Origin: Methanoregulaceae archaeon
GTDB taxonomy: Archaea; Halobacteriota; Methanomicrobia; Methanomicrobiales; Methanospirillaceae
Assembly: GCA_019695435.1 (NCBI GenBank)
Contig: JACTVF010000012.1
Span: forward strand, 1 to 16,537
DNA length: 16,537 nucleotides
Reading direction: 5' to 3'
Shown here piece by piece: positions 3,276-15,813 of this stretch. The notes under the pieces are model-generated. The model had not been told where the DNA came from, did not search any database, and saw only the letters and a program-made list of their open reading frames with translations. Position 1 is the stretch's first letter. Each line of letters starts with the position of its first letter. The translations under genes were made by a program, and so were the position numbers.

Positions 3276-3286
3276 TTTGGCTCCAA

Positions 3287-3703: not shown

Positions 3704-4905
3704 TAGCGCATTCTCCTCGCGGACAGCCTGCTGTACGTCACCGGTGGGCCGCCCGTGGCGGCATTGATGTCGCACTTGAGGTAGACGTAGCCGGTGGTCG
3801 TGGTGTTGATTCTCCAATTGGCGATGGTCGCCGACGTCCAGTCCGAATAGGTTGCCTCGTAATGCACGTATATCCCGATCTGGTTGTCTCCCATGACATG
3901 GTCGGTGGTCGTCCCCGCGCTGTACTGCGACAGGGCGATCAGGTTTTCCTCGTTGCCGCCAATGGACGGGTTGGCCCCCGCGTTGTCGACGGTCACCTGC
4001 CCCGTTACCTGCCAGTCGCCGGCGGTCAGGGACAGCGACAATAGGTTTTGCCAACTGCCCGTGGCATTTGTCCCCACCGAGTCGTTGGCGTAGGCGACCT
4101 CGCCAATGTACCCTGTTGCGGCATTGGAGCTGTTCGTCACTCCCAGGGCGGGCCATCCCGTCGGGCCCACGTTCCCGCTAAACCCCGAAGCTCCCGTATA
4201 GCCGCTGGTCCCGGACGAGCCGATCGATCCGCTGGTTCCCGAGTAGCCGCTGAAGGTGCCGCTGAAGCCGGACGTCCCGGACGCCCCGGGCCCGCCGATC
4301 GCCCCCGATTGTCCGCTGGCTCCCGACGTGCCCGATTGCCCGCTATAGGTGCCGCTAAAGCCCGAGACGCCGCTTATTCCGCTCGCCCCGGACAGGCCGA
4401 TGCCCGAAAAGCCGCTTCCCCCCGATCTGCCCGATTGTCCGCTCAGCCCGGACGAGCCGCTGAAACCGCTGGGGCCGCCGCTAAAGCCCGATGATCCTGA
4501 AAAGCCCGAACCGCCCGACGCGCCCAATATCCCGCTGGTTCCGCTGATCCCGCTTTCCCCTATCGCCCCGCTCTGCCCGGACGTCCCCGATTGGCCCTGA
4601 TTGCCGCTGAACGCGCTGAAGCCGCTGGCTCCAACGGCTCCCGAATAGCCGCTCGGCCCGCTATACCCCGAGTCCCCGTCCGTGCCCGATTGGCCGCTGG
4701 CCCCGGAAACGCCGTACCCGATGCCGCTATACCCGGAAATGCCGCTCCATCCCGAATGCCCGCTGATGGCGGCCGGGCCGATGGCCCCCGAGAAGCCCGA
4801 TGCGCCCGATCCGTTCTGCATCCATTGGCATCCGCAGCGGCAGGACGGCAGGTGGGAGCAGGACTGTTTCTCGGCGTACCAGGATGAGTTTTCGCAGCCG
4901 TTCAT
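3703..4905 (-). CDS. Collagen-like tail fibre protein with phage fibre-tip domain
   Basis: 400 aa. Residues 1-31 are Cys-rich ('YAEKQSC', 'SCRCGC'). Residues about 32-253 are Gly-X-Ser/Thr triplets. Residues about 254-400 form a globular head with 'GSWQNLLSLSLTAGDWQVTG' and a final 'YSRLSARRMR'. That arrangement (a 'LTAGDWxVxG' strand near the start and an 'ARRxR' end) is familiar from C-terminal domains of many phage tail-fibre proteins. The ATG at 4905 follows a purine-rich leader (GGGAAAG), and the stop overlaps the next gene's ATG by one base, so the two are probably translationally coupled. Likely a trimeric fibre with an N-terminal anchor and a C-terminal tip; the ligand is unknown. Confidence 0.85.
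   Translation of the reverse strand: MNGCENSSWYAEKQSCSHLPSCRCGCQWMQNGSGASGFSGAIGPAAISGHSGWSGISGYSGIGYGVSGASGQSGTDGDSGYSGPSGYSGAVGASGFSAFSGNQGQSGTSGQSGAIGESGISGTSGILGASGGSGFSGSSGFSGGPSGFSGSSGLSGQSGRSGGSGFSGIGLSGASGISGVSGFSGTYSGQSGTSGASGQSGAIGGPGASGTSGFSGTFSGYSGTSGSIGSSGTSGYTGASGFSGNVGPTGWPALGVTNSSNAATGYIGEVAYANDSVGTNATGSWQNLLSLSLTAGDWQVTGQVTVDNAGANPSIGGNEENLIALSQYSAGTTTDHVMGDNQIGIYVHYEATYSDWTSATIANWRINTTTTGYVYLKCDINAATGGPPVTYSRLSARRMR
4180..4810 (-). repeat. Collagen-like stalk coding repeat of the 400-aa fibre gene
   Basis: Degenerate 9-base units encode about 210 residues of Gly-X-Ser/Thr triplets (GFS, GYS, GTS, GQS, GAS). Its codons are more GC-rich than those of stalks 3 and 4 in the giant gene, so the two arrays are not recent copies of each other. 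Confidence 0.88.
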
Positions 4906-4938
4906 ATGCGTTTCTTTCCCGTTTTTTTGCCGGCAATC

Positions 4939-5373
4939 CTATTGCTGGGAAATGGACAGGGTTCCCAATAGAAACTGCACGGGAACTCCCGACGTGAATG
5001 TCACCGTGGACGTCAATGGGCCGGCATACATGAGGTTCCCTCCAACGGCGGCGTCAAAGATCGCTATGCCTCCCGTGGGCGGCGTGACCGTTCCCCAGCC
5101 GATGCCGCCCGGCGTAGGGAAGGCGATCGTGACCGCGTTCGAGCAGGATTCCGTCGACGTGGCTGGAAAGCTTGCGGCGGTCGTGGCGACGCTGGCTCGG
5201 GCATAGCCGACAGCGTTTCCGGCAGGGTCGGCCACTTCCGTTCCTCCGCTTCCATCCTTTGCGGGAAGGGTCGAAAATATCCCAATGTAAAGCGTGGCCG
5301 GAGGCGTATACGGCGCCGCATTCAGCAGGAAGTTTAACAGCGCGTTCGCCCAGTAGTTGCCGGTGTTTCCCAT
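4939..5373 (-). CDS. Phage virion-associated protein of the 'TLYIGIFS' family
   Basis: 144 aa starting 'MGNTGNYWANALLNFLLN' and running through 'PPATLYIGIFS', 'GYARASV', 'AFPTPGGIGWGTVT', 'GGIAIFDA' and 'GNLMYAGPLTS'. This is a common small phage structural protein with the order ALLN-hairpin, PPATLYVALF, GYARQ, WGTVTHFGIFDA and GxLLYHGAL; its exact virion position is usually not annotated. The open frame extends upstream to 5547, but those residues read through the leader and IS boundary and do not fit the family, so the ATG at 5373 is chosen. No Shine-Dalgarno lies in the 18 nt before it; instead a two-tier hairpin separates it from a strong AGGAGG (see the leader entry). The stop lies 33 nt before the next fibre gene. 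Confidence 0.85.
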   Translation of the reverse strand: MGNTGNYWANALLNFLLNAAPYTPPATLYIGIFSTLPAKDGSGGTEVADPAGNAVGYARASVATTAASFPATSTESCSNAVTIAFPTPGGIGWGTVTPPTGGIAIFDAAVGGNLMYAGPLTSTVTFTSGVPVQFLLGTLSISQQ

Positions 5374-5434
5374 AAGATTTTCGGGCGAGGGTACTGCTGG
5401 CTTCAGCCAGCAGGGGAATCGCCCGCATCCTCCT
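5374..5434 (-). promoter_or_regulatory. Leader A: hairpin-split ribosome binding site
   Basis: On the minus strand, AGGAGG (5434-5429) is followed by ATG, outer stem CGGGCGA (5425-5419), TTCCC, inner stem CTGCTGGC (5413-5406), loop TGAA, GCCAGCAG (5401-5394), TACCC, outer stem TCGCCCG (5388-5382), then AAAATCTT and the start codon at 5373. Both stems are perfect (7 and 8 bp) with a 5x5 internal loop. Linear SD-to-ATG spacing is 55 nt; with the hairpin folded out it is 11 nt. The same design with different stems occurs before 13255. Known analogues of split initiation regions are T4 genes 38 and 25; function here is inferred. Confidence 0.65.
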
Positions 5435-5483
5435 CTCCAGATGCGACGCCGTAGTTCGGAAGGAATTGTCCGAGCGATGGCAT
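5403..5483 (-). CDS. Possible 26-aa leader ORF
   Basis: ATG 5483 follows AAGGA at 9 nt spacing inside a 33-base sequence that is identical to the leader of the 379-aa structural gene at 11772, so this start probably is, or was, a real one. The peptide begins MPSLGQFLPNYG and ends DSPAG. Its TGA lies in the loop of the leader A hairpin, 29 nt before the next ATG. It may be a coupling leader peptide, a genuine micro-gene, or the surviving start of a gene whose body was lost. No family recognised. Confidence 0.4.
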   Translation of the reverse strand: MPSLGQFLPNYGVASGEEDAGDSPAG

Positions 5484-5511
5484 TGTAATTAGTCCTTGAC
5501 TTTCGTGACTT
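5479..5511 (-). repeat. 33-base repeat, copy 1 (translation leader)
   Basis: Identical over 33 bases to 11769-11801, same strand. It spans a Shine-Dalgarno (AAGGA), spacer, ATG and two more bases. Identity stops sharply at 5511, which suggests that phage sequence ends and the IS607 element begins there. Confidence 0.8.
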
Positions 5512-5524
5512 CCCGTGCCATAAT
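5496..5524 (+). promoter_or_regulatory. Probable promoter of IS607 tnpA
   Basis: TTGACT (5496-5501) and CATAAT (5519-5524) are 17 bp apart, a good sigma70-type fit. The -35 lies inside the 33-base phage repeat and the -10 outside it. Expected initiation near 5531 coincides with the tnpA ATG, and no Shine-Dalgarno precedes that ATG, so the message may be leaderless. Confidence 0.5.
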
Positions 5525-5530
5525 ATATCC

Positions 5531-6121
5531 ATGGACGGGAGAGTCAAGCTGTCCGAGGCGGCTAAAATCCTCGGAATGTCCCTTAGGCAAACAAAGCGCC
5601 ATGTTTACGCCGGCAAGATTCCAAACATCATCACCGACACCGGCAGGCGGTTTGTGCCTGTATCCTGGCTTAAAACACAGGTTGGCGAAGGCCCCTCTGC
5701 AGGCAGTCGGTGCGCTATCTACAGCCGGGAGTCCAGTAGTGAGAACAAGACAGCCCTCGCCAGCCAGACGGATGTTCTCAGGAAGTACGCCGCGGCTAAA
5801 GGCTGGACCATCGTGCGCGCGGTTGAGGAATTTGGCAGCGGGGTCAATGACCAGCGCAAGAAACTCCACTCGCTGTTGTCCAAGCGGGATTATGACGTGC
5901 TCTTGGTCGAACACAAAGACAGACTTACTCGCTTCGGCTTTTCCTGGTTTGAGGCCACTTGCCCATTCAGGATTGAAGTGATAAACCGGGCCGAGAACGA
6001 AACCAATGACCTCATGGAGGACCTGGTGGCCATACTGACAAGCTTCTCCGCAAGACTGTATGGTCAGAGGCGTGGAAGAAAGAAGAGTTTGGCCGCCATC
6101 AAGGCGCTCAAGGAGGTTTAG
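5531..6121 (+). CDS. tnpA: IS607-family serine recombinase TnpA
   Basis: 196 aa. Residues 5-50 form a MerR-like helix-turn-helix ('VKLSEAAKILGMSLRQTKRH', 'AGKIPN'), followed by the resolvase/invertase catalytic domain: 'AIYSRESSSENK' with S68 as probable nucleophile, 'ASQTDVLRKYAAAKG', 'LLVEHKDRLTRFGF' (130-137) and 'LMEDLVAILTSFSARLYGQR'. Length and order match IS607 TnpA, which binds the element ends and cuts and rejoins DNA through a Ser-DNA link. The usual 'RVS' around the nucleophile is 'RES' here. The stop abuts the tnpB GTG. No truncation is seen, so it is probably active. Confidence 0.92.
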   Translation: MDGRVKLSEAAKILGMSLRQTKRHVYAGKIPNIITDTGRRFVPVSWLKTQVGEGPSAGSRCAIYSRESSSENKTALASQTDVLRKYAAAKGWTIVRAVEEFGSGVNDQRKKLHSLLSKRDYDVLLVEHKDRLTRFGFSWFEATCPFRIEVINRAENETNDLMEDLVAILTSFSARLYGQRRGRKKSLAAIKALKEV

Positions 6122-7204
6122 GTGCTGCGGGCAGTTAAGGTTTCCCTTAGAGGGGCCACCCAGCGCAAGCTCGGCAAGCTCGAAGCCCTGCGGCGCGAAG
6201 TCCGCGGCTGCACCCAGCGGTACATGGACTCCCTTTGGACTGAACCCGGCAGACTTGACGCTAATACACTGAACCGCGTCAGCGGTGGGAGTTTGTCTTA
6301 CCGGCACCGCTCCAACTGCCTCAAGGTCGCCCTCGAAACCTTGTCCGCCACCAGAAAGGCCGCTAAGGCCACTGGCTTTATGTGTGGCAAGCCGCGCGTT
6401 CACGGCTCTACTAGACTCAGTTCCCTTGTGGCTAAGATTGAAGCCGGAAAGGGAAGCTTCGGCTATGTGCTCAAGGTCTCTGGGCTGGCCAAGGGAAATC
6501 CGATAGTTGTTCCGTTTAAGTCTCATGCGCGGCTTAACCACTGGCTCGGCAAGCCCGGCGCCAAATTGTTGCAGGGCTGCACCCTTGGCGACAAGTGGGC
6601 CGCCCTGTGGATTGAGATTCCAGACAGAGAAGTTAAGGAAACCGGGAAAGCCATTGGCGTTGATGTTGGCATCAATAAGTTGATGGTTGACTCTGACGGG
6701 GCCAAGTATGGCGTTGAAATGAAAGCTGTTTGCCGGCGCGTCAGGCGTTGTATGCCGGGTAGTAAGGGTAAGCGGCGCGCTTGCGCGGCTCGGCGGGATT
6801 ACATTAACCGGCAAGCTAAACTTTTGCCGTGGAAAGACCTCGCCGTTATCGGCGTGGAGAAGTTGCGGGATTTGAAGAAAGGCAAGAGCAAGAAAAGAAG
6901 CAAAGAATTTCGCAAGGCGGCCGCGCCTTGGACATACCGGCAGATGCTTGATAGGATTGAACAACTCGCGCAAGAGAACCGTGTTCGTCTTGTGGCTGTC
7001 AATCCGCGCAACACCTCCCGGACATGCCCTCGCTGTGGATGGGTGGCGGCCGAAAACAGGAGAGGAGAGAAATTTCAGTGCGTCATTTGCAACTACAGCG
7101 GTGACGCCGATCACGTCGGAGCACTGAATATTCTCGCACGCACTCTCGGCAACTCGCAGGAGTCTATGGTCCCTGCGCCGCCTGGCGAAGAACAACGAGG
7201 TTAA
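6122..7204 (+). CDS. tnpB: TnpB RNA-guided nuclease of the IS607 element
   Basis: 360 aa, GTG start directly after the tnpA stop, with AAGGAGG 7-13 nt upstream. RuvC residues are all present: D181 in 'AIGVDVGINKL', E246 in 'IGVEKLRDL' and D330 in 'GDADHVGALNIL'. A zinc finger is formed by C302/C305 ('TCPRCG') and C320/C323 ('CVIC'). Characterised TnpBs use a right-end-derived guide RNA (omega RNA) to cut DNA and help the element persist. The C-terminus 'PAPPGEEQRG' ends at TAA 7202-7204, well before the terminal hairpin, which is unusual because many tnpB genes run into it. The same frame continues after the TAA as part of another TnpB. Confidence 0.92.
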   Translation: MLRAVKVSLRGATQRKLGKLEALRREVRGCTQRYMDSLWTEPGRLDANTLNRVSGGSLSYRHRSNCLKVALETLSATRKAAKATGFMCGKPRVHGSTRLSSLVAKIEAGKGSFGYVLKVSGLAKGNPIVVPFKSHARLNHWLGKPGAKLLQGCTLGDKWAALWIEIPDREVKETGKAIGVDVGINKLMVDSDGAKYGVEMKAVCRRVRRCMPGSKGKRRACAARRDYINRQAKLLPWKDLAVIGVEKLRDLKKGKSKKRSKEFRKAAAPWTYRQMLDRIEQLAQENRVRLVAVNPRNTSRTCPRCGWVAAENRRGEKFQCVICNYSGDADHVGALNILARTLGNSQESMVPAPPGEEQRG

Positions 7205-7219
7205 AATGTCACACATTTT
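7203..7219. repeat. Short palindrome at the tnpB / remnant junction
   Basis: AAAATGT-CAC-ACATTTT is a perfect 7-bp inverted repeat overlapping the tnpB stop codon, at the switch from one TnpB tail to the other. It is a candidate for the original IS607 right end or the recombination point. Confidence 0.45.
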
Positions 7220-7408
7220 GACTACCATTGCTGCCCGAACTGCGGCCTGTCTGTACATCGGGACGTAAATGCGGCTCGCAACATATTGAAGCGAGCCTTG
7301 GCCCGGACTGGGCCAAAAAACGGCATCGCTAACCTTGTGCTCCAGCATGGACATCCCCTTCAGCAGTCCGTGTCGCCACGGGGTCGTTTTAGAAGCCCCC
7401 GCCTTTAG
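7205..7408 (+). pseudogene. C-terminal remnant of a second TnpB
   Basis: Directly after the tnpB TAA and in the same frame, the translation reads 'HFDYHCCPNCGLSVHRDVN' then 'AARNILKRALARTGP' and ends 'SPRGRFRSPRL' at TAG 7406-7408. It is the second half of a TnpB zinc finger (CPNCG) plus the RuvC-III 'DVNAARNIL' and the C-terminal tail. The first CxxC and everything upstream are absent. The preceding tnpB already has a full zinc finger and RuvC-III, so this is not its own end. It is read as the tail of another TnpB left by recombination or nested insertion. Confidence 0.8.
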
Positions 7409-7424
7409 GCGGGGGAGTAGTCAC
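7396..7424 (+). repeat. Right-end hairpin of a TnpB element (probable omega RNA 3' end)
   Basis: CCCCCGCC-TTTA-GGCGGGGG (7396-7415) is an 8-bp perfect hairpin followed by AGTAGTCAC. It is the typical right end of TnpB-carrying elements, and the remnant's TAG stop begins in its loop. In studied systems the guide RNA is transcribed through the tnpB 3' end into this hairpin, so an omega RNA roughly within 7205-7424 is expected but not shown. Confidence 0.7.
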
Positions 7425-7433
7425 ACTAGTGAC

Positions 7434-7474
7434 GCAAAAAAAAGGAGCGAGGCTTCCGCTGTCGCCTGAAGGCG
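7434..7474 (+). repeat. Truncated third copy of the leader hairpin unit
   Basis: 41 bases identical to minus-strand 13318-13278: an A8 run, GGAG, outer-stem strand CGAGGC, inner-stem strand CTGTCGCC, loop TGAA and half of the closing strand (GGCG). It breaks off there and IS200/IS605 end sequence follows. Read on the minus strand, the T8 run follows the partial hairpin, so it could act as a weak terminator in the phage transcription direction. Confidence 0.75.
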
Positions 7475-7486
7475 CCTTGTGACACT

Positions 7487-7509
7487 CCGCCACCCCTAAA
7501 GGGGTGCGG
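7487..7509 (-). repeat. Right-end hairpin of the IS200/IS605 element
   Basis: CCGC, one bulged base, ACCCC-TAAA-GGGGT and GCGG form a bulged hairpin. The tnpB TAG stop starts in its loop, and minus-strand GAGTGTCAC follows. It matches the left-end hairpin, as expected for sites recognised by Y1 transposases as single strands, and is also the expected 3' end of the omega RNA. Confidence 0.75.
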
Positions 7510-8731
7510 CTTCTCGGTTCGCTTGGACCAGTTCCCGACCTGGAACCATCCCCGAAGGGGCTGCCCGCCCCATTTCTTTTCCCAGTCTTTCTGCTTCTTC
7601 AATCCTTCCCGCCACCATCAGCCACCTTTTCAGGATGTTGATGGCGGCGTTAATGTCCCTGTGAATCACAAGCCCGCAGAACGGACAGTCGTAAACCCGC
7701 TCATCAAGCCCCTTTCTGACGATTTTCCCGCACCTGCAACATTCCTGGCTCGTTCCCCTCGGCTCGACTGCCTTGATGGCGGAGCCAGCGTTCGCAGCTT
7801 TGCTCCCGAGCCTTTGAAGAAACAGTCCCCAACCAGCGTCCAGGATGTTCTCGGACTTCGCACAAACCTTCTTGCCGTTCTTTTTGTCTTCCACTGCCTT
7901 CCTGATCAACCCCATGATGTCCAAGTCCTCGACAACGATGGGATTGAAGTTCTCGACCAGCATGTTCGCGAGCTTGAAGTGGAAGTCCCTTCTATGACGC
8001 TCGACCTTCAAATGCTTCCTGGCTAATTTTTCTCTTTGTTTCGCTCTTCTCTTCGACGCCCTTTCCTTATTATCCAGCAATCTTTGCTCGTGCTTGACTT
8101 CGTCCAGGGCTTTCTTAAGCAGCCTTGGATTCTTGATCTTCTCGCCGTCGGACAGGACAGCGAAGCTGTTCAAGCCCAAGTCTAGGCCGACGGGATTGTC
8201 CAATTGGCTTGGCTTCGGTTCTGGGACTTCGACTCCAAGGAAGGCGTACCAGCCGTCTGCCTTTCTCTTGACGATACAGGTCTTGATCTCGCCAATGATT
8301 TCGCGATGAAGGTTGATCCTGATTCTGCCTATTTTTGAAAGGGAGAGCCTCTTGCCCTGAAGCCCGAAGCCGTTTCCGTATTCCTTGAACGAAAAGGAGT
8401 TGAAGAAATACTGCCCCTTGAACCTTGGAAAGCCTGGCTTCTCGCCATTCTTGAGTCTCCTGAAGAAAGCTTTGAAGGCAAGATCAAGCCGCTTCAGAGA
8501 CCCTTGAAGGACGTGGACATGGACGTCTTCGAGCCAGGGCTTTTCCTTCCTGAGTTCCTTAAGGTACTTGGACTGGTCATAGAAGCTGGTGGAATACTTG
8601 GCATAGCGATACATGTTGACGCGGTCTTCAAGCCCCCAGTTGTAAACGTAGCGGGCTGCGTCAAGCATGTCGATGAGCCGCTGCTTTTGGCACTTAGTAG
8701 GCTGGAGCTTGAACTCATAGGTCTTGAGCAT
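7496..8731 (-). CDS. tnpB: TnpB RNA-guided nuclease of the IS200/IS605 element
   Basis: 411 aa. The chosen ATG overlaps the tnpA stop (TGATG) and gives the canonical start 'MLKTYEFKLQPTKCQKQ'. The frame is open further upstream, but only through tnpA sequence. RuvC residues are D184 ('VGLDLGLNSFAV'), E268 ('PIVVEDLDIMGL') and D359 ('HRDINAAINIL'). The zinc finger is C331/C334 and C349/C352. 'FPRFKG' and the Lys/Arg-rich helix at 205-250 are standard for the family. The last residues (REAAPL) are encoded by the right-end hairpin itself. It resembles the adjacent plus-strand TnpB only in the core motifs, so the two elements are unrelated insertions rather than duplicates. Confidence 0.94.
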   Translation of the reverse strand: MLKTYEFKLQPTKCQKQRLIDMLDAARYVYNWGLEDRVNMYRYAKYSTSFYDQSKYLKELRKEKPWLEDVHVHVLQGSLKRLDLAFKAFFRRLKNGEKPGFPRFKGQYFFNSFSFKEYGNGFGLQGKRLSLSKIGRIRINLHREIIGEIKTCIVKRKADGWYAFLGVEVPEPKPSQLDNPVGLDLGLNSFAVLSDGEKIKNPRLLKKALDEVKHEQRLLDNKERASKRRAKQREKLARKHLKVERHRRDFHFKLANMLVENFNPIVVEDLDIMGLIRKAVEDKKNGKKVCAKSENILDAGWGLFLQRLGSKAANAGSAIKAVEPRGTSQECCRCGKIVRKGLDERVYDCPFCGLVIHRDINAAINILKRWLMVAGRIEEAERLGKEMGRAAPSGMVPGRELVQANREAAPL

Positions 8732-9120
8732 CAGATGCCTTTTTGCTTTTCGATGTATTTTTGAATCATCTCTTGGGATACATTTCCAGCAGTAGAAGCA
8801 AAATAGGACGATGTCCAGAGGGACGGCAACTTGCACAGTTCTGGGTATTTCTGTCTCAACAGCCTGGATGTACTGCCCTTGCATTGGTTGACCACGAAGG
8901 CCGCATCGTTGGTTGGAAAAGTACGAACGAAGAGATGAACATGGTCTGGTGCGATGGCAAGATTAAGCACCTGCCAGCCATGTTCTTCGCACTTTGTTTC
9001 AATCATGGCCTTCAGGTCCTTGGCTACGTCTCCGACAAGGACTTTCTTGCGACGCTTGGGGCACCAGATGAGATGGTAGATGATTAGGTGAACCCTGTGT
9101 TCGTCCCTTTGATAGTCCAT
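8731..9120 (-). CDS. tnpA: Y1 HUH single-strand transposase TnpA
   Basis: 129 aa. Shows 'YHLIWCPKRRKKVL' at the start, the HUH motif 'PDHVHLFV' (H60, H62) and the catalytic helix 'SQEMIQKYIEKQ' with Y122 as probable nucleophile. Length and motifs fit complete IS200/IS605 TnpA, which excises and inserts single-stranded DNA guided by end hairpins. GGAG lies 8 nt before the ATG, partly inside a small palindrome (CTGTAG-AA-CTACAG on the minus strand, 9145-9132) that could limit translation. The stop overlaps the tnpB start by one base. Confidence 0.94.
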   Translation of the reverse strand: MDYQRDEHRVHLIIYHLIWCPKRRKKVLVGDVAKDLKAMIETKCEEHGWQVLNLAIAPDHVHLFVRTFPTNDAAFVVNQCKGSTSRLLRQKYPELCKLPSLWTSSYFASTAGNVSQEMIQKYIEKQKGI

Positions 9121-9150
9121 GTTTTTGTCTCCTGTAGTTCTACAGTTTAT

Positions 9151-9180
9151 ATTCTACAGGCAGAAACACTAATCCTTCAA
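9151..9180 (-). promoter_or_regulatory. Candidate promoter of IS200/IS605 tnpA
   Basis: Minus-strand TTGAAG (9180-9175) and TAGAAT (9156-9151) are separated by 18 bp, upstream of the tnpA ribosome binding site. Moderate consensus match only. Confidence 0.35.
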
Positions 9181-9192
9181 CAATTCTTCATG

Positions 9193-9238
9193 CGCCGCCT
9201 ATCCGCTGACCCCTAAAGGGGTGCGGCTTGCGGCGGCG
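9193..9238 (-). repeat. Left-end structured hairpin of the IS200/IS605 element
   Basis: Outer stem CGCCGCC/GGCGGCG (9193-9199 with 9232-9238) encloses CCGC-TG-ACCCC-TAAA-GGGGT-GCGG, whose core matches the right-end hairpin. Position and similarity fit the left subterminal palindrome bound by TnpA. Confidence 0.7.
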
Positions 9239-9247
9239 AAAAATCTG

Positions 9248-9883
9248 TCAACTTGGTATCCTCAATTGTACGCTCAAATTGTACGCCCAATTGTTGCCCG
9301 GGTTATTTGCCAGGTCCGTATCGCAATAGACGTAGACGTAGTTCATTCCAATAGCCAAGCGGGAAGCGGGGACGACTATGGATTGCGGAATTATGGCCGC
9401 GGCCTGGGCGGCGGTTTGGGCCACCAAAAACGTGCCCGTTCCCGCAGCAAACCAATCCGCTGCAACCGGGGGATTGGAAACGGCCGGATTGAGATAGTAT
9501 TCGAGATTATACGAGCCTCCGCCTATCTCGGCCCCTAAGGTAAGGACGCCAAAGGGTATTTCCGTGCCCATTGGTATATTTAGGCCAATGATGCTGCGAT
9601 AGCGGTAGTAGTTCCCCGCGGCCAGCCCGGTACCGACTACGACCCCGGTGTAATTGGTCAAGGAAATTATCGGATAGGGAGGATCTTCGTGATTCCCGAA
9701 CGGCGAATCCAGCATCTCCGCAGTGTATGTGGTTATGTCCGCGGACAGGTAGTTCAAGCTGGCCGTCAGGGTTCCCACTCCGAGCAGGGTACAGGCGAGA
9801 GTTGACACGGGCTCGCCAAACTGCCCGCAAGGGCTTTGCCAGACCGATCCGCAGGAGGACTGTTGGGCGTAGGACCAGGCCAT
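9248..9883 (-). CDS. Unrecognised phage structural protein, Cys-containing N-terminus
   Basis: 211 aa. AGGAG lies 6 nt before the ATG, and the previous gene's stop is 9 nt upstream. The N-terminus 'MAWSYAQQSSCGSVWQSPCG' resembles that of the 400-aa fibre gene ('SSWYAEKQSCSHLPSC'), suggesting a shared anchor. The rest is rich in Gly, Ala, Tyr and small residues and looks beta-rich, without signal peptide, coiled coil or collagen triplets. It belongs to the tail or baseplate block by position. Its TGA is followed directly by the IS200/IS605 left end, so the gene is uninterrupted but its downstream link is broken. No function assigned. Confidence 0.75.
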   Translation of the reverse strand: MAWSYAQQSSCGSVWQSPCGQFGEPVSTLACTLLGVGTLTASLNYLSADITTYTAEMLDSPFGNHEDPPYPIISLTNYTGVVVGTGLAAGNYYRYRSIIGLNIPMGTEIPFGVLTLGAEIGGGSYNLEYYLNPAVSNPPVAADWFAAGTGTFLVAQTAAQAAAIIPQSIVVPASRLAIGMNYVYVYCDTDLANNPGNNWAYNLSVQLRIPS

Positions 9884-9892
9884 TGCGGACTC

Positions 9893-10630
9893 CTATGAAA
9901 TGGTTTGGGCGACCCAATGCCTGGCGTCAATATTCAGGTCCACGTAGCTGATTTGAGTGGTTTTCAAGAGGTACGTCGGCAGGGACACCGTGACTTGGGC
10001 CGCAACCGTTCCGCCGAAGTTGAAGGTGGCGATCATGGCGCCGACATTTGGGGCTCGGGCGACTTGCAGCGCTTGGTAGGACACAACTATGTTGGCGTTG
10101 GTGAAGTACATCGGGCTAATTACCTGGGTCTCCGTGGCTGCCGTTCCCGAATATCCCATGTATGGCGCCCGCCTCGCCACCCTGCTGTTTCCATCCTGTG
10201 AATATAGGCTATAGGACGCGGAATATGCGACCGTGGGCGGGCTGCCATAGGCGCCGCTCGCCGTTCCCGGATATATCCACAGGTTGTCGGTAGCGTACCA
10301 CGAATCGGTTAGGACAGTGGGCTTGGATACAACGAAGAGAGTGGGGTTTGCGCTGGCCCATGTTCCCGCCGCCAGGGCCGCTCCGTCCACGTTCGGACTT
10401 TGCTCTATGGGCACGCAAAACAGCCACTGGTCCCATGTTCCCATTACCGTCATGTACCTGGTTGGGACCGATTGCATCCATGGCTGCGGCTCGGGGTAAT
10501 TGGCCTGCGGGCCGTATATGCCGTCCTTCAGCCGGTTTATTGCGTCGCTGATCGCCGTTTGCCTGGACGCGGAGAACCTGTCGCCGATCTGAGTCTGGTT
10601 CAATATGTTTGGCGGCTGAAAATTGTCCAT
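9893..10630 (-). CDS. Unrecognised phage structural protein (245 aa)
   Basis: The ATG at 10630 is two bases after the upstream TAA and gives 'MDNFQPPNILNQTQIGDRFS'; the longer open frame would only add shadow sequence of the preceding gene. Residues 1-40 look helical ('FSASRQTAISDAINRLKDGI'). The remainder is beta-rich with many aromatics and ends 'VDLNIDARHWVAQTIS'. It lies in the run of tail genes after the tape-measure-like gene and precedes the 211-aa gene by 9 nt. Possibly a baseplate or fibre-connector protein, by position only. Confidence 0.75.
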   Translation of the reverse strand: MDNFQPPNILNQTQIGDRFSASRQTAISDAINRLKDGIYGPQANYPEPQPWMQSVPTRYMTVMGTWDQWLFCVPIEQSPNVDGAALAAGTWASANPTLFVVSKPTVLTDSWYATDNLWIYPGTASGAYGSPPTVAYSASYSLYSQDGNSRVARRAPYMGYSGTAATETQVISPMYFTNANIVVSYQALQVARAPNVGAMIATFNFGGTVAAQVTVSLPTYLLKTTQISYVDLNIDARHWVAQTIS

Positions 10631-10632
10631 CG

Positions 10633-11772
10633 TTAAGTCGCCTGGGTGCCGGGCAGGTTCAGGACGCTGCTGAAGTCGCACGTTTGGTACATTTGAAAGA
10701 CAAACGGGTTTGCGTCGGGCGGTATTTGGCCGCCTGAGAGGTATGTTGATCCCTCCGGCGCCGACTCATTCGGAGCCCCGCTGCCATTATTGATCGTGTA
10801 CCACGCCAACGCTTGCCATGGCGACATGCAGCTGGTTCCGATATATGGGCCGACCGTGGCAAGGACGCTGGAGGCAGGAGGGACGTATTCGGCGGAAGTC
10901 GCCGTTCCGCTTCCGCCGTATGGCTGCGGTGGGTATGCGAGCTGCCCGACCTGGAACTCATAGGTGACGCAATAGCTCTGCGATTCGTCAAGGGTGGTAT
11001 TCTCGATTCTCGTGCACAGGGCGCATTGCGCGTTTATGACGCCGATCGAGGGCCATGGGTCGGACAGGTCCCAATAGGATGAATTGACATACCCCACGTA
11101 CTGGTTATTCCTGGGCTGGGTTTCGCGGCGCTGGAACCTGAGCAATACGGTCGGAACCTGGATGGAAGCCGTGACCCGGGTATTGGGCTGCCCGGGGCGG
11201 AACGGAGGCCCCAGGGAGGTGGCGCTTGGGCTTATGTTCACGGCCTGCAATACGCCATTGACGTTCGCCTGGGTTGTGATATTGTAGGAGTTCGTTCCGC
11301 CGCCCGCCCCGGTTCCCCCGCTGCAATACGGGACGACCATGACGTTGCCCGCGATATCGGTGGACGTCTCTATCGTTTGGACGGATGACGATATTATCAG
11401 CAGGGCCAGGGCGCTGTCGTTGTCAGCGTTTGCCTCCTGGGTCAGGCCGTTCATCATCTGATAATCGACCGTGACCCTCGCCTGGGTGGACGTGATGGCC
11501 TTGCATTGGATGACGTCCGCGCAGAAGGCGTTCGTGGTATTCCAGTTGTTGGGAAAAAAGATGGACGGATGCGGGGCCCCGCGCATGGGCAACTGCATCT
11601 CATCGGGGTATTCTTGGGCGACGTTGAAGACCACGTTCCACAGCGTGCTTGTTGGGATCGACATGTCGCAATTGTCAAGGATGAAGGTCCTGCGGCATTT
11701 CGGGCCTTCCTTGGAGTACTCGAAGGTCTGGTCGCCCTCGGTGACCTGTATGTCCGGATAAGTCGTAGGCAT
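10633..11772 (-). CDS. Unrecognised phage structural protein (379 aa)
   Basis: ATG 11772 is chosen because AAGGA stands 9 nt upstream and residues before it merely translate the leader. The protein begins 'MPTTYPDIQVTEGDQTF' and contains several Cys ('FILDNCDM', 'AQCALCTRIE', 'SYCVTYEFQVG'). It is Asn/Thr/Ser/Pro-rich in the middle and looks beta-sheet throughout, with no transmembrane segment. It is the first gene after the tape-measure-like gene, where distal tail or baseplate hub proteins usually lie, but no hub motif is recognised. The 31-nt gap to the upstream gene is occupied by the 33-base repeat that also occurs at 5479-5511. Confidence 0.78.
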   Translation of the reverse strand: MPTTYPDIQVTEGDQTFEYSKEGPKCRRTFILDNCDMSIPTSTLWNVVFNVAQEYPDEMQLPMRGAPHPSIFFPNNWNTTNAFCADVIQCKAITSTQARVTVDYQMMNGLTQEANADNDSALALLIISSSVQTIETSTDIAGNVMVVPYCSGGTGAGGGTNSYNITTQANVNGVLQAVNISPSATSLGPPFRPGQPNTRVTASIQVPTVLLRFQRRETQPRNNQYVGYVNSSYWDLSDPWPSIGVINAQCALCTRIENTTLDESQSYCVTYEFQVGQLAYPPQPYGGSGTATSAEYVPPASSVLATVGPYIGTSCMSPWQALAWYTINNGSGAPNESAPEGSTYLSGGQIPPDANPFVFQMYQTCDFSSVLNLPGTQAT

Positions 11773-11801
11773 TGTAATTAGTCCTTGACTTTCGTGACTT
11801 T
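11769..11801 (-). repeat. 33-base repeat, copy 2 (translation leader)
   Basis: Identical to 5479-5511. Here it fills the whole gap between the tape-measure-like stop and the start of the 379-aa gene and carries that gene's Shine-Dalgarno and ATG. Confidence 0.8.
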
Positions 11802-11803
11802 CA

Positions 11804-12571
11804 CTATGCAACCGCCCTCGGTGGCAATGGGTTATTGTTGTTTCGGTTTACGGCGTCGAGGATCTTATAGAGCACGACGACTTCTTGCGAATGCTGGGCT
11901 TGGAGGGCGCCTCCTGCTATGGCCCCAATGGCGGCATGGCCCGGGCCATGTCCTCCTGCACCGGCGGGCTGTTTATTGGATGTCAATATCGCCTTTTCAA
12001 GAAGGCTTTTTTGGGACTCTGCCTCCTCAAGACGTTCTTTTCCAATCTCCGGAATGACCCCTAATTTTTGCAGGATATATCCCATCCCGGGAATGGGTCC
12101 GGCCACCCCTATGGCCGCATTCGCATAATCCTCCCACGTCGACTTGCCCTTTATGAGCTCGGTATTGACCTCCGCAAGCCGCTTTTTCATGTTCTCCAGG
12201 CTGTTGCTCCTGATGGCGTCCGTGGTCTTGTTGAGCCCCGTTGCGTATGCGTTTATTGCTTCGGTTCCGGCTTCGAACGCACTCTTTGCCGCCAATAGCG
12301 TCCCGACAAAGATGGCTATCGGGCCTAGCCCCGACTCGAAGGCCGCAAAGACGTGATGCACCGCCCCTAGCGATACTCCTGCCGCTTCCCCAATCAAGTG
12401 CAAGTTATTGCGGGACATAAGCAGCGACGCATTGAACTTGTCCATGCCCGCGCCGCTTTTTTTCGCGGCGTCGCCAAACCAATTGACGGTGTTACCGGCC
12501 TTTTGCATGCCCGACGTGAACTCGCTCTGATCGGCCGTCAACAGCAATTCTAATCTGCCTGCGTCAGCCAC
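11804..12571 (-). CDS. Short tape-measure-like tail protein
   Basis: 255 aa from a GTG start (GGGAGG 5 nt upstream) that overlaps the chaperone stop by 8 bases. 'RLELLLTADQSEFTSGMQKA' followed by 'WFGDAAKKSGAG' is the usual opening of tail tape-measure proteins. A hydrophobic stretch (about residues 80-95, 'GPIAIFVGTLLAAKSAF'), helical Lys/Glu-rich segments and a Gly/Ala-rich part ('GAIAGGALQAQ') follow. It sits directly after the G/G-T chaperone pair, exactly where the tape measure is expected. Most tape measures are several times longer, so this is either a short-tailed virion or a reduced relative. It ends cleanly with TAG; no broken continuation is seen downstream. Confidence 0.72.
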   Translation of the reverse strand: MADAGRLELLLTADQSEFTSGMQKAGNTVNWFGDAAKKSGAGMDKFNASLLMSRNNLHLIGEAAGVSLGAVHHVFAAFESGLGPIAIFVGTLLAAKSAFEAGTEAINAYATGLNKTTDAIRSNSLENMKKRLAEVNTELIKGKSTWEDYANAAIGVAGPIPGMGYILQKLGVIPEIGKERLEEAESQKSLLEKAILTSNKQPAGAGGHGPGHAAIGAIAGGALQAQHSQEVVVLYKILDAVNRNNNNPLPPRAVA

Positions 12572-12896
12572 GCTTGCCTCCCGCCATCACCCCGAATCCC
12601 GCAGCGAAGGCCCTGCGCTTGTGTTCGATCTCTTCCTCGGTTATCGGCGTGGGGAACAGCATGTAGTCGCGGGCCTCGGCCAATTCCCTGGATGAATTCT
12701 GCAGCATGATCCTGGCTCCGATCAGGTCGGCAACCTCGTCGCTGGGCGAGCGCAACCCGCCGGGGGCGTAGTAGCCGAAAAAGCTCCGCCATTCCTCGAA
12801 CTGCTCGGCGGTGAGGCAGGTCTTGCACTCGTCTGCCGTCTTAAAGCCCAGTTGCCAACTCACATAAAGCCACGAGAATAGCTCTGAGCTTAAACT
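12564..12896 (-). CDS. Tail assembly chaperone T part, read by -1 frameshift from G
   Basis: After a -1 slip on the A8 run the frame reads SLSSELFSWLYVSWQLGF and continues to TGA 12566-12564, adding 110 aa to the 120 aa of G, for 230 aa in all. A GTG at 12863 could start a separate 99-aa protein, but it lacks a clear Shine-Dalgarno. The T segment has 'LTAEQFEEWRSFFGYYAPGG', then 'SDEVADLIGARIMLQNSS', the layout of phage minor tail protein T / DUF4035-type chaperones ('EF..W..y...PfG', then an Ala-rich helix). In lambda-like phages G and G-T hold the tape measure and recruit major tail protein, which agrees with the gene order here. Confidence 0.75.
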   Translation of the reverse strand, partial: SLSSELFSWLYVSWQLGFKTADECKTCLTAEQFEEWRSFFGYYAPGGLRSPSDEVADLIGARIMLQNSSRELAEARDYMLFPTPITEEEIEHKRRAFAAGFGVMAGGKRG

Positions 12897-13255
12897 TTTT
12901 TTTGGACGGCATCCTTCGCCTCGGCGGTGAAGCAGTTTATGTCGGCCGCCTTCTTAGCCAGCCTGTCCAGCACCAGGCCGTCGATCTCGCCCAGTTCCTC
13001 GGGCTTTTCGAAAATGCTCTTCCCGTCCGCGTCGCAGAGCGTCAGTTGCAGGAGCAGCGGCTGAAGCTTGACGAACGCGACGCTGCCCTGTCCCTTTTCC
13101 TTTTCGTCCGACGCGGCGTAGAGGGCTTCCAAATAAGCGTCCCTTTGGTGCCCATTCATCCTGCGGATGAAAAGGCCGCCGACGCCAAGATCGGCATCGT
13201 TGACGAGTTCGATCTTGCTCTTGACCGCCAATATCTGGTGCTTCAAGCTGCCCAT
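12890..13255 (-). CDS. Tail assembly chaperone G
   Basis: 121 aa, mostly helical and charged: 'MGSLKHQILAVKSKIELVND', 'GGLFIRRMNGHQRDAYLEALY', ending 'EAKDAVQKKV'. The pattern ('vFIRRm.g.eRd.y') and size fit the phage tail assembly chaperone families, and it lies between the major tail gene and the tape-measure-like gene. Its last codons hold the A8 slippery run. No Shine-Dalgarno lies directly before the ATG; AAGGAG is 49 nt upstream, on the far side of a stable two-tier hairpin that would fold it to a 7-nt spacing. G and G-T are not virion components in lambda; by analogy this one acts during tail assembly in the cytoplasm. Confidence 0.8.
   Translation of the reverse strand: MGSLKHQILAVKSKIELVNDADLGVGGLFIRRMNGHQRDAYLEALYAASDEKEKGQGSVAFVKLQPLLLQLTLCDADGKSIFEKPEELGEIDGLVLDRLAKKAADINCFTAEAKDAVQKKV
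12896..12904 (-). promoter_or_regulatory. Probable -1 ribosomal frameshift site
   Basis: Minus-strand codons CAA AAA AAA GTT TAA contain the slippery heptamer A AAA AAA five codons or fewer from the G stop. Slipping back one base reads AGT TTA AGC and joins the T frame with no intervening stop. Shift direction and position match the conserved G/G-T arrangement of long-tailed phages. Confidence 0.75.
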
Positions 13256-13310
13256 AAGTTGACGAGGCGGGGACTGTCGCCTTCAGGCGACAGCGGAAGC
13301 CTCGCTCCTT
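13256..13310 (-). promoter_or_regulatory. Leader B: hairpin-split ribosome binding site
   Basis: On the minus strand AAGGAG (13310-13305) runs straight into outer stem CGAGGC (13304-13299), then TTCCG, inner stem CTGTCGCC (13293-13286), loop TGAA, GGCGACAG (13281-13274), TCCCC, outer stem GCCTCG (13268-13263), TCAACTT and ATG 13255. Stems of 6 and 8 bp flank a 5x5 internal loop. Folding reduces the SD-to-ATG distance from 49 to 7 nt, an optimal spacing. Same architecture as leader A with different stem sequences. Confidence 0.68.
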
Positions 13311-13316
13311 TTTTTT
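13263..13316 (+). terminator. Terminator-like hairpin in plus orientation
   Basis: The same two-tier hairpin read on the plus strand is followed by CTCC and eight T (13309-13316), the form of an intrinsic terminator. No plus-strand gene precedes it, so it could only stop antisense transcription; the minus-strand role as leader B may be the real one. Confidence 0.4.
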
Positions 13317-13390
13317 GCCGGAATTGTATTGACTATATCCTTGGCGGAGATATAGTCAAGAGCATGGAAACGAGATACCGAAGAAATCAC
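13283..13390 (-). CDS. Doubtful 35-aa leader ORF
   Basis: GTG 13390 has AGGAGG four bases before it, overlapping the stop of the major tail gene. The frame ends in TGA within the leader B hairpin loop, in the same phase as the 26-aa ORF ends in leader A. The peptide (ending SEASAVA) passes through the palindrome and the A8 run and matches nothing recognised. Probably chance or a coupling peptide. Confidence 0.2.
   Translation of the reverse strand: MISSVSRFHALDYISAKDIVNTIPAKKRSEASAVA
13329..13359 (-). promoter_or_regulatory. Palindromic promoter candidate before the chaperone leader
   Basis: A perfect 11-bp inverted repeat, TTGACTATATC and GATATAGTCAA with a 9-base centre. On the minus strand it gives TTGACT, 16 bp, TATAGT, so transcription would begin near 13325, just upstream of leader B. 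Being symmetric, it gives the same boxes on the plus strand. It may be a promoter, an operator, or an RNA hairpin after the major tail gene. Confidence 0.4.
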
Positions 13391-13398
13391 TCGGCCTC

Positions 13399-13920
13399 CT
13401 AGCTCGCCGCCTTTCCCGTCACGGCGCCGGTGTCGGAATAGCTGTTGTCCAATACGTCCGTGATGACCAGGACGATGTTGGCGATCAGCGCCTTGCCGTC
13501 CAACTCGCCTTCAAGCTCGTAGCTCTTCATCCATGCGAGGCATTTCGCTGTCTGTTGGGCGCCGCCATCTGGAGTCGCTGGGGTCGCTGGGCCGTAATTG
13601 ATCGTAATGTAATCGACGCCTGGAAACGACGACGTCCCGGCTGGGTTGATCGGCGACGTGACCGTGGAATCGTGCAGTATCTGGAGGTGGAGCTCGCCCG
13701 GCTTTATGTAGGCCGATGGCATGTACATCTTGTTTCCGAAATTGTACTCGCCGGAAGCCGTGGGCAAAACGTTCATGTTCGTCAGCTCAATAGACTCCCG
13801 GTTAACCTCCGGCCAGTTAAAGCGCACGATTTGGACGGGCGAGGACGAAAACGCGCTCATTCCCGTTATGGTGGCAAGCGCCTGCCCATGCGTGAGACCG
13901 CCGCCGGCATAATTAGGCAT
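13399..13920 (-). CDS. Probable major tail (tube) protein
   Basis: 173 aa, AGGGAGAA upstream of the ATG. Beta-rich, beginning 'MPNYAGGGLTHGQALATITG', with 'SGEYNFGNKMYMPSAYIKPG' and a C-terminal 'KCLAWMKSYELEGELDGKAL' then 'ANIVLVITDVL', which looks like a tail tube domain. Identity rests mainly on position: the gene before the G/G-T chaperones and tape measure encodes the tube subunit in siphophages, and size (about 170 aa) fits. After its stop lie a palindrome and the leader B hairpin, which may separate its high expression from that of the chaperones. Confidence 0.68.
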   Translation of the reverse strand: MPNYAGGGLTHGQALATITGMSAFSSSPVQIVRFNWPEVNRESIELTNMNVLPTASGEYNFGNKMYMPSAYIKPGELHLQILHDSTVTSPINPAGTSSFPGVDYITINYGPATPATPDGGAQQTAKCLAWMKSYELEGELDGKALIANIVLVITDVLDNSYSDTGAVTGKAAS

Positions 13921-13940
13921 TTTTGTTTCTCCCTAAGCGG

Positions 13941-14342
13941 TCAAGCGCTTGGCTTGGCCATTTCCGTTTCTATCTTTTGCTTCAGTTCCTTCGCCGTTAT
14001 TTCCGTCGCCTCGGCCGCGTTCCGTTCCAATGCGGGACCCATGAACGGGACCTTCTTCTGAATTCTCTTCCCGGGACCGGTCGAGCCGCCCTCGGCCATG
14101 ATCGCGTAGTACGCGTCTCCCACCCCGACCCGAACCTGCGTCTCGCCCGACTTGGAGCGGGACGATATGTTCATTTGGCTGATCAGGTGGCCGGTCCTGT
14201 ACGGCGCGTTCCCTATGGCGTCGGCAAGGATTGGCTCCGCGCCCTTCTTCATTGCCGCGGCCATGAACCGCTTGGCCACCTTGTCGGGCAGCGCCTTCAG
14301 CTTCTCGGCCATCTCCTTGACGCCCTTGACCTCAATCTTCAC
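13941..14342 (-). CDS. HK97 gp10-like head-tail joining protein
   Basis: 133 aa from GTG 14342 (GGGAAAAG upstream), which gives 'VKIEVKGVKEMAEKLKALPD'. The family pattern is clear: helix 'KRFMAAAMKKGAEPILADAI', 'NAPYRTGHLISQM', 'GDAYYAIMAEGGSTG', then 'PFMGPALERNAAEATE' and a final amphipathic helix. These proteins sit at the neck and help complete the tail or join it to the head. The gene follows the 100-aa membrane protein with one base between TGA and GTG and precedes the major tail gene by 20 nt. The open frame extends further upstream, but those residues overlap the previous gene. Confidence 0.82.
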   Translation of the reverse strand: MKIEVKGVKEMAEKLKALPDKVAKRFMAAAMKKGAEPILADAIGNAPYRTGHLISQMNISSRSKSGETQVRVGVGDAYYAIMAEGGSTGPGKRIQKKVPFMGPALERNAAEATEITAKELKQKIETEMAKPSA

Positions 14343-14343
14343 G

Positions 14344-14646
14344 TCATTCTTTTCCCGCCCGGGACGCCAAGTTCCTACTGCCCGCCAAGTCCCTGCGGAT
14401 GGCGGCAATGTCGTCGCGGATCTGGATCAGGCTGATGTTGATGCTGGCGATGCTTGCTGCCGTCTCCTTCTCGAACGACTCGATGGAAGCGTGCTTTTCC
14501 GCCTGCTCCTGCCACTTCACGTCGTCGGCGGACAGGCTCTTGTCGTGGGAGTTTAGGGTGAACAGTCCCCATGCGAACAGGCCGGTGCAGGCGATCACCA
14601 GGGCGATCACGGTGTTGCGGAGGAGGGCGGAGTCGTGCATTGTCAT
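14344..14646 (-). CDS. Small membrane-anchored coiled-coil protein
   Basis: 100 aa. The ATG at 14646 overlaps the upstream TAA (TAATG). A short N-terminus is followed by one hydrophobic segment (about residues 9-31, 'TVIALVIACTGLFAWGLFTL'), then a charged helical region with likely coiled coil ('ISLIQIRDDIAAIRRDLAGS'). No signal-peptidase or lipobox site is seen, so it is probably a type II inner-membrane protein. Similar small proteins in phage clusters include holins, spanin subunits and superinfection-exclusion proteins, but it lies in the neck region and no lysis genes are nearby, so no role is assigned. A second ATG at 14640 is an alternative start. Confidence 0.7.
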   Translation of the reverse strand: MTMHDSALLRNTVIALVIACTGLFAWGLFTLNSHDKSLSADDVKWQEQAEKHASIESFEKETAASIASINISLIQIRDDIAAIRRDLAGSRNLASRAGKE

Positions 14647-15161
14647 TATCCCACGGGCGGCTCGTCGTACGGAGCGGCAACTTGGTCGCTGATGAACGGA
14701 TAGGAGAACGTTATGGGAATGGTGCAAATGAACGCTTCCAGCCCGCCCAGGAACTTGGACACGGGCTTCTCGTGGAACCTTCTTTCCGGCTTTCCCGCCT
14801 TCATTTTCAGGGCCGTCCTGTTTTCCCCGTACCGCCAAACATCGTTCGTCGCCCAGCCCGTCCACAGCATGGCGAGTTGGTTGTACACGGGCCCGAAGTC
14901 GTATGAGACGTCCGCAGGAACCGGGAAGAACAGTTCCGCCGTCAGCGAGAACATGGAATTAGTGGTCAATAGGTCGGACTCTATTTCCGAGGGCATGCCT
15001 ATGACCAGGACATAACCCGTGTCGGCGATCCGAGTCCAGAAGTCGCCGTTTGCCAGGAGCTCGACCTGGCCGACGACCACGTTGGACGGGACCATGTTCG
15101 GGCAATTTTGGGCAACCGATTGCAGGTCCAACTGGAATTGGTAGAATGCCGAGTTTGCCAT
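14646..15161 (-). CDS. Phage neck or tail-terminator-region protein, unrecognised
   Basis: 171 aa; the ATG overlaps the upstream TGA (TGATG). 'MANSAFYQFQLDLQSVAQNC' begins with a helix, then strands such as 'TGYVLVIGMPSEIES' and 'AFICTIPITFSYPFI', an alpha-beta layout compatible with tail terminator proteins. It precedes the gp10-like gene, whereas terminators usually follow it, so the assignment is only positional. No transmembrane segment. Confidence 0.68.
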   Translation of the reverse strand: MANSAFYQFQLDLQSVAQNCPNMVPSNVVVGQVELLANGDFWTRIADTGYVLVIGMPSEIESDLLTTNSMFSLTAELFFPVPADVSYDFGPVYNQLAMLWTGWATNDVWRYGENRTALKMKAGKPERRFHEKPVSKFLGGLEAFICTIPITFSYPFISDQVAAPYDEPPVG

Positions 15162-15812: not shown

Positions 15813-15813
15813 G

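Follow-up and report, generated by a model that had tools for sequence, protein, structure and literature searches.

IS608 of Helicobacter pylori, a transposon of the IS200/IS605 family, is described as choosing its cleavage site by base pairing with a tetranucleotide at the 5' foot of an end hairpin; the pairs named are A+16:T-3 and A+17:T-4, with guide AAAG and target TTAC at the left end and GAAT and TCAA at the right (PMC5934647). In IS200, a 5' stem-loop conceals the ribosome-binding site of the transposase itself (PMC12594629). In the leaders of phage T4 genes 25 and 38, a hairpin shortens the spacing between the Shine-Dalgarno (SD) sequence and the AUG from 27 to 11 and from 22 to 5 nucleotides (nt), respectively (PMC3014915). 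Here, we describe two hairpins in a 16,537-nt stretch from a Methanoregulaceae archaeon (contig JACTVF010000012.1, positions 1-16,537; this whole stretch is the window, and all window coordinates refer to it). They stand at the start codons of two virion genes, and most likely they are the left ends (LE) of IS200/IS605-type transposons (Y1 transposase, single-strand) oriented oppositely to the gene.

The two minus-strand leaders, 5374-5434 and 13256-13310, share one architecture, exactly as an initial annotation of this DNA had described: an outer stem of 7 or 6 base pairs (bp), a 5x5 internal loop, and an 8-bp inner stem capped by UGAA. In both, the SD sequence lies on the far side of the hairpin and none adjoins the ATG, as can be read directly in the sequence, and counting bears out that looping out the hairpin shortens the spacing from 55 to 11 nt in leader 1 and from 49 to 7 nt in leader 2. 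The same annotation had taken the pair for a translational device evolved by a phage for two virion genes, and in this it was wrong, as the hairpin is the left end of IS200/IS605-type elements adjoining transposase or TnpB sequence. Judged from sequence, we are confident, if not certain, of the reading as a whole: a transposon LE sits at the start codon and displaces the SD sequence, and its own end possibly supplies a replacement. The features concerned are as follows.

4939..5373, minus strand: gene for a Gp80-like fibre/head protein, downstream of element 1 (PF23140, E 3.2e-27; phrog_240, E 2.8e-13); start codon 5371-5373
5370..5373, plus strand: CCAT, target and left cleavage tetranucleotide of element 1, complement of the ATGG start of the fibre-like gene
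5374..7424, plus strand: element 1 (2051 bp), IS200/IS605-type and IS607-interrupted, with LE, TnpB fragment and right end; putative extent
5374..5425, plus strand: LE hairpin of element 1 (leader 1), with outer stem 5382-5388/5419-5425, guide GGTA 5390-5393 and inner hairpin 5394-5413
5429..5434, minus strand: candidate replacement SD sequence, AGGAGG, separated by the hairpin from the start codon
5531-7204, plus strand: IS607-type insertion inside element 1, a serine recombinase/TnpB pair in two open reading frames (ORFs)
5531..6121, plus strand: serine recombinase of the IS607-type insertion (PF00239, E 1.9e-15)
6122..7204, plus strand: TnpB of the IS607-type insertion (PF07282, E 5.3e-17)
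7205..7405, plus strand: C-terminal TnpB fragment assigned to element 1 (PF07282, E 5.3e-7 over 67 residues)
7392..7424, plus strand: right end of element 1, by eye, with guide GAAG 7392-7395, hairpin 7396-7415 and TCAC 7421-7424
12890..13255, minus strand: tail assembly chaperone gene, downstream of element 2 (phrog_344, E 2.3e-14)
13252..13255, plus strand: CCAT, target of element 2, complement of the ATGG start of the tail chaperone gene
13256..13390, plus strand: element 2 (leader 2), non-autonomous, 135 bp; putative right boundary
within 13256-13390, plus strand: LE hairpin of element 2, with outer stem 13263-13268/13299-13304, guide GGGA 13270-13273 and inner hairpin 13274-13293
13305..13308, minus strand: candidate replacement SD sequence, GGAG, separated by the hairpin from the start codon
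13380-13383 and 13387-13390, plus strand: GAAG and TCAC, degenerate right end of element 2, without a hairpin
13395..13400, minus strand: AGGAGG that element 2 separates from the gene; omitting the element puts it 4 nt upstream of the ATG

Copies of the hairpin and their transposase neighbours

The 20-nt pattern of the UGAA hairpin (at most one mismatch) occurs at two places in the window, namely the leaders, where 0.03 are expected from shuffles. RNA folding reproduces the drawn structures (z = -2.60 for leader 1 and -2.75 for leader 2); in the predicted fold of leader 1, the SD region also lies inside a separate small hairpin. A known RNA family was ruled out, as Rfam has no match in the window at gathering score, and a tRNA or tmRNA identity was rejected. 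At E 0.1, Rfam gave a single sub-threshold microRNA match on the loci L065, L012 and L057 (L012, 2-92), which is taken as chance.

The motif does recur outside the window, in bacteria and phages, and of the many copies found, 29 were aligned. A search pattern with free stem bases led to nine viral stretches, seven of them convincing (L009 and L011 have no model match), the commonest inner hairpin used as a pattern led to 14 viral stretches, and a pattern with a free loop led to 29 genome stretches and 17 viral stretches. Among these 29 genome stretches, 22 match the later model R1, one of them (L053) being cut by the end of the stretch; L034, L051 and L054 have no match, and L027, L028, L030 and L048, which lack flanking features, were not put to the model. 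R1 was built on sequences nearly all of which include ATGG and favours that ending; matches shorter than 55 nt were dropped. Leader 1 scores 65.0 bits and leader 2 71.3 bits.

All seven pairs of the outer stem vary on both sides among the 29 aligned copies. Counting the whole structure, pairing holds in 93.1% of cells, compared with 27-47% when the partner is slid, and the covariation score is 0.540 versus 0.122 in shuffles. The compensatory change claimed for the stems is therefore borne out by the 29 relatives, while the two window copies from which it had been read are thin evidence by themselves. Because no search pattern touched the outer stem, its covariation was not produced by the search; the patterns did fix part of the inner hairpin, where sequence conservation is partly imposed.

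Fifteen genomes were searched; the copy number per genome ranges from 1 to 42, and many copies are at contig ends, as expected for repeats. These genomes were chosen for already holding a pattern match, so that 15 of 15 is uninformative on frequency; 150 first-look candidates were scored per genome, and the 80 stretches taken round matches are a part of all matches. Of 752 candidates in the window's own genome, 150 were scored, and the two leaders are the only full-length copies among them. In the resulting set of 127 copies, at least one locus is counted twice (L053 is L165), and L055 and L060 are near-identical. A phage-specific regulon was ruled out, as genomes of Chloroflexi, Frankia, Bacillota and others have copies too.

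In 47 of the 127 copies, including leader 1, where the match is the inserted IS607, transposase (Y1) or TnpB sequence is found in divergent direction no more than 2 kb from the hairpin; for 40 of the 47 the distance is 41-247 nt. It is because of transposase or TnpB beside many copies, together with the repeat-like copy numbers, that we read the hairpin as an IS200/IS605 left end. Subterminal end hairpins are present on the left in both window elements and on the right in element 1 and the Frankia elements. A serine-recombinase element was tried as the owner of leader 1 and rejected, the R1 hairpin being found in none of seven loci with recombinase relatives (34-64% identity). The separate TnpB fragment and the right end better explain leader 1 as the end of an IS200/IS605 element than as that of the IS607-type insertion.

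No relatives of the two downstream genes came to light, nor any empty sites of elements 1 and 2. A DNA similarity search with leader 2 in phages gave four weak, short matches. Relatives of the tail chaperone, sought in viral contigs, phages and 298 related genomes, were limited to the window's own copy in the 298 genomes, with none in viral contigs or phages, and the fibre protein, sought in viral contigs only, had none.

Guide, target and empty sites

The IS608 scheme also has a fourth-base pair, which is consistent with both IS608 ends. Written out, the rule links a target X Y A Z to a guide Y' X' N Z'. In the hairpins described here, one side of the drawn internal loop, made up of unpaired bases, contains the guide tetranucleotide, and the conserved ATGG (within CTTATGG) is the complement of the target CCAT. 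The internal loop had been thought to hint at a bound ligand or protein; a partner there is, but it takes the form of the guide tetranucleotide used by the transposase.

Both window guides, GGTA in element 1 and GGGA in element 2, predict CCAT. With IS608-type pairing, the foot predicts the start-codon tetranucleotide exactly in 103 of 118 distinct copies. Foot base 1 and target base 1 combine as T>A in 98 copies, C>G in 9, C>A in 5, T>G in 4 and T>T in 2, while foot base 3 and target base 4 combine as C>G in 106, T>A in 9, C>A in 2, C>C in 1 and T>G in 0. Both informative pairs are associated (Fisher p 1.6e-7 for base 1 and 6.7e-12 for base 3, over copies that are related and not independent). 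An altered foot goes mostly with an altered start, as in CCCC with GTGG, TCTC and TTTC with ATGA, and CTTC with GTGA; the exceptions are five copies with foot base C yet ATG and four with foot base T yet GTG. The target spectrum is thus mostly CCAT, plus (C/T)CA(T/C) variants. Where right ends were read by eye, Frankia and the phage contigs L058 and L063 combine GAAG with TCAC; in the Bacillota genome G007, five of nine copies of an element combine CAAG with TGAC, and the other four have a changed last tetranucleotide. The phage contig L018 carries two different left ends (4750-4812 and 6524-6587), with guides for ATGG and ATGA, flanking a tnpA/tnpB pair.

Empty sites were sought by comparing Frankia or Parafrankia insertions with close relatives; the gene names used here are read from translations, with no family search behind them. 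A 1212-bp element before a TldD-like gene is absent in five relatives, in which the flank is continuous into the ATG. Four relatives lack a 1747-bp element that stands before a dehydrogenase gene, and in them native GAAGGAGA directly precedes the ATG. At both loci, the element has the last upstream base directly at one edge and the A of the ATG at the other, and the empty sites are contiguous, which indicates insertion 3' of the target with nothing duplicated or lost. At the dehydrogenase locus, a fifth relative (L204) has solely the 13-nt LE tail CCGGAGGTCTTTG before the ATG; this may be an excision remnant, possibly leaving a new SD sequence, or an assembly collapse. A 1517-bp element before ureF, absent in two relatives, is a weaker case, as the gene side is exact and the upstream side aligns only from a distance.

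Genome G007 carries an element of 327-332 bp that has no ORF. At least nine copies of it are present, 89-94% alike among the listed pairs, and each ends at ATG or GTG with no similarity downstream. The phage contigs L058 and L063 have a common 329/332-bp element before different genes, and the phage contig L065 has two copies before two genes, with 69 nt upstream in common. When the element is left out, 10 of 11 joined sites (nine from G007, plus L058 and L063) have a G-rich, SD-like word upstream, on a generous word list that includes AAGG and GGGG, and 8 of the 11 have an in-frame stop at most 75 codons upstream. The interior of these ORF-less elements of about 330 bp (G007, e.g., L103, L105 and L106; L058 and L063) is conserved and is possibly a structured RNA.

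At the level of sequence comparison, then, the LE identity, the guide/target rule, the exact Frankia empty sites and the repetition of copies with and without transposase are demonstrated. For the window elements, we infer clean insertion from leaving the element out. Leader 2 is probably a 135-bp non-autonomous element between the displaced AGGAGG and the ATG; with element 2 removed, upstream TAGGAGGCCGA joins ATGGGC. In its own genome, element 2 has one full copy and one 41-nt partial copy; it has the left palindrome only and no transposase. Within it, 13329-13359 is a palindrome, TTGACTATATC-N9-GATATAGTCAA, which could be a promoter or operator. A similar palindrome, GGTTATACC-N9-GGTATAACC, again with 9 nt between its arms, lies in the LE of a Frankia element (L035).

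Two further features lie between the leaders.

7434..7474, plus strand: third, partial copy, 41 nt identical to leader 2
7479..9246, minus strand: separate IS200/IS605 element, with TnpA 8731-9120 and TnpB 7496-8884; ends by eye

The partial copy is apparently split from a further piece (about 9247-9254) by this separate element, which has guide CAAG, target TGAC (TTGAC) and right end TCAC; its target is no start codon. By eye, its LE has an outer stem, CGCCGCC/GGCGGCG, round the guide and hairpin, and the element looks complete. It is the window's example of the stem in a left end with another target, and a control search of other IS605 lineages gave too few clean cases. Downstream of the Gp80-like gene, long minus-strand ORFs at 3-3329 and 3703-4905 have collagen-like G-x-S-G repeats (SGYSGTSG...) and probably encode fibre proteins.

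A possible ribosome-binding site from the transposon end

In the proposed mechanism, GGGA or GGTA, the guide tetranucleotide at the hairpin's 5' foot, would pair with CCAT, the other strand of an ATGG start. An element inserted 3' of CCAT would directly adjoin the ATG on its 5' side and so separate the gene from its SD sequence. A new ribosome-binding site would then come from the element's own end, adjacent to the ATG or on the far side of the folded hairpin, and this supplied site would make the insertion tolerable. In leaders 1 and 2, the replacement site would have to act across the folded hairpin. We put forward tentatively, as possible though not yet probable, that one hairpin doubles as DNA substrate of the transposase and as structured ribosome-binding site, such that an element DNA-guided to the complement of start codons lands between SD sequence and AUG and survives thereby. 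A split ribosome site folded together by the hairpin is a testable hypothesis.

For the counts that bear on this proposal, two copies without [A/G]TG (L014 and L041) were dropped. Outward SD words are placed across the hairpin only in 62 of 125 copies, adjacent only in 32, at both positions in 3 and at neither in 28. Across words are therefore present in 65/125 copies and adjacent words in 35/125, compared with 13% and 8% in random windows. When related copies are counted once (43 clusters), the figures are 16 across only, 10 adjacent only, 2 both and 15 neither, and across words occur in 18 of 43 clusters versus 14% of 471 windows deeper in the same elements (19% cluster-averaged). The linear spacing is too long and the hairpin would make it usable in the window (55 to 11 and 49 to 7 nt) and in the 65 copies, where the looped-out spacing is 3-17 nt with a mode of 6 that comes mostly from G007; adjacent words also have a modal spacing of 6 nt. 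The adjacent arrangement prevails in Frankia and in the Anaerolineales genome G001, the across-hairpin arrangement in the Chloroflexi genome G008 and in G007, and phages have both. This distribution is consistent with an element carrying an initiation site of its own.

Folding should have opposite consequences under the two arrangements. In the adjacent class, the word starts within the stem in 35 of 35 copies. The outer stem averages 6.4 complete pairs of 7 in across-only copies, 6.2 in adjacent-only copies and 6.1 in copies with neither. Since the stem is equally complete without an across word, its covariation is no evidence for a split site, and the stem owes its conservation to something else, perhaps the transposase or the transposon's own transcript.

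Several observations weigh against the overall reading. The guide rule is broken in 15 of the 118 copies, and 55 of the 127 have no transposase or TnpB match in the available flank, with a further 25 having too short a flank. In the window, the joined flanks of element 1 have no SD sequence, element 2 has no transposase and its right end no hairpin, and no relative without element 2 was found among 298 related genomes and phages. Exclusivity of adjacent and across words has only p = 0.046 over the 43 clusters. The ATG opens at least 100 codons in 68 of 120 copies (11 and 26 in the other two frames), five more copies with less than 330 nt downstream having been left out of this count; for the G007 element the figure is 5 of 9 copies. 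Three of the 11 joined flanks have no in-frame stop within 100 codons upstream and are possibly inside genes. As background, a frame of 100 codons or more opens at 1946 of all 6160 ATGG sites in the loci. Real starts may account for about half of the insertions, the others lying elsewhere. A crude gene-start count, which calls starts badly as frames run on into the element, puts 21 of 97 element sites in the start class, versus 91 of 2931 other ATGG and 261 of 9405 other RTGR sites, and 57 of the 97 in the "genic" class.

The hairpin might instead be a transposon end and nothing more, the outward GGAGG being incidental or the complement of a pyrimidine tract (e.g., a terminator) and the downstream genes being silenced or weakly translated. 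We regard this as a serious contender that falls somewhat short of an even chance. The outer stem is kept with or without an across word, by eye it is present in left ends with other targets too, and 28 of the 125 copies lack any SD word; folding would hide the adjacent words, all of which begin in the stem. Moreover, on the transposon strand, the leader 2 hairpin is followed by TCC and T8, which is terminator-like. However, long T runs on that strand are rare by eye in the listed copies of the across class, in which the tracts are mostly CTCC or CCTCC, and the excess of across words over deeper windows and the looped-out spacings of 3-17 nt also count against it.

Two other explanations give the hairpins a function for the phage. 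Some phages may have domesticated old transposon ends, such that leaders 1 and 2 are now regulatory parts and not transient insertions. Copies without a transposase match (element 2, at 135 bp, and the two L065 copies, one of them short-flanked) and the good stems in both window copies would agree with this, but element 1 retains both ends and a TnpB fragment, and element 2 resembles an ordinary non-autonomous copy; we consider domestication unlikely. Very improbable is an RNA leader evolved by phages independently of transposons, folding a split ribosome site and maybe binding a ligand or protein. In its favour are the perfectly paired, covarying stems, the placing of two copies before two virion genes (as well as before two genes in L065), and the precedents of T4 genes 25 and 38 (PMC3014915). 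Yet the same structure borders transposase and TnpB in bacteria and obeys the transposon guide rule, the guide accounts for the unpaired loop bases, and the structure is absent from empty sites, which in the main refutes an independent leader.

Transposons are known to limit the harm they do by landing between genes or, in the manner of IStrons, by splicing out. If the proposal of a transposon end that restores translation is true, a DNA-guided element aimed at the complement of start codons would add a further route to harmlessness, and some conserved "leader RNAs" would be explained as transposon ends. For RNA-motif searches it is a caution that perfectly covarying hairpins upstream of start codons can be ends of single-strand transposons. 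The target of a transposon usually corresponds to the motif of its TnpB; by this correspondence, these elements would be expected to have TnpBs that require a CCAT-like motif, such as is present at start codons.

Relation to described elements

With the identity corrected to transposon left ends, the hairpins represent a variant within a known family, for whose novelty the literature offers weak support. Among the matches listed from the open-licence literature, in titles and the beginnings of abstracts, there is no description of IS200/IS605 elements abutting start codons. REP sequences and their TnpA-REP transposases likewise have a hairpin with a guide-like foot tetranucleotide and occur as solo copies, but they differ in having a GTAG foot and CT/CA cleavage, versus GGGA and CCAT here (PMC8266576). 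One group of IStrons is of the IS200/IS605 type, and its insertion is likewise made harmless; whereas IStrons leave the RNA by group I intron splicing, the elements described here would replace the ribosome-binding site (PMC4227781).

The palindrome-associated transposable elements (PATEs) of Haloquadratum (PMC3119063) and Halanaerobium (PMC7290912) are short and have IS605-type palindromic ends, with no transposase and no target duplication. Element 2, with its left palindrome only, the 327-332-bp G007 elements and those of L058 and L063 may be compared with them. Unlike PATEs, the elements here end exactly at ATG or GTG, and the term "start codon" is absent from the main text of both PATE papers (PMC3119063, PMC7290912).

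The likeness to split initiation in T4 is that a linear SD sequence lies too far from the start codon and an intervening hairpin shortens the spacing; the T4 case is a phage leader with experimental support, whereas the structure here is a transposon end known from sequence alone (PMC3014915). The closest relation is with IS608, which has the same LE hairpin, guide tetranucleotide at the 5' foot, crossed pairs and insertion 3' of the target (PMC5934647). The guide occupies a comparable position, the bases named in IS608 being +16 and +17 and those here +15 to +18 in element 2 and +17 to +20 in element 1. In contrast to IS608, with its TTAC target, the target here is mostly CCAT, the complement of a start codon, and the hairpin and guide are set inside a covarying outer stem, in an end that bears outward SD words.

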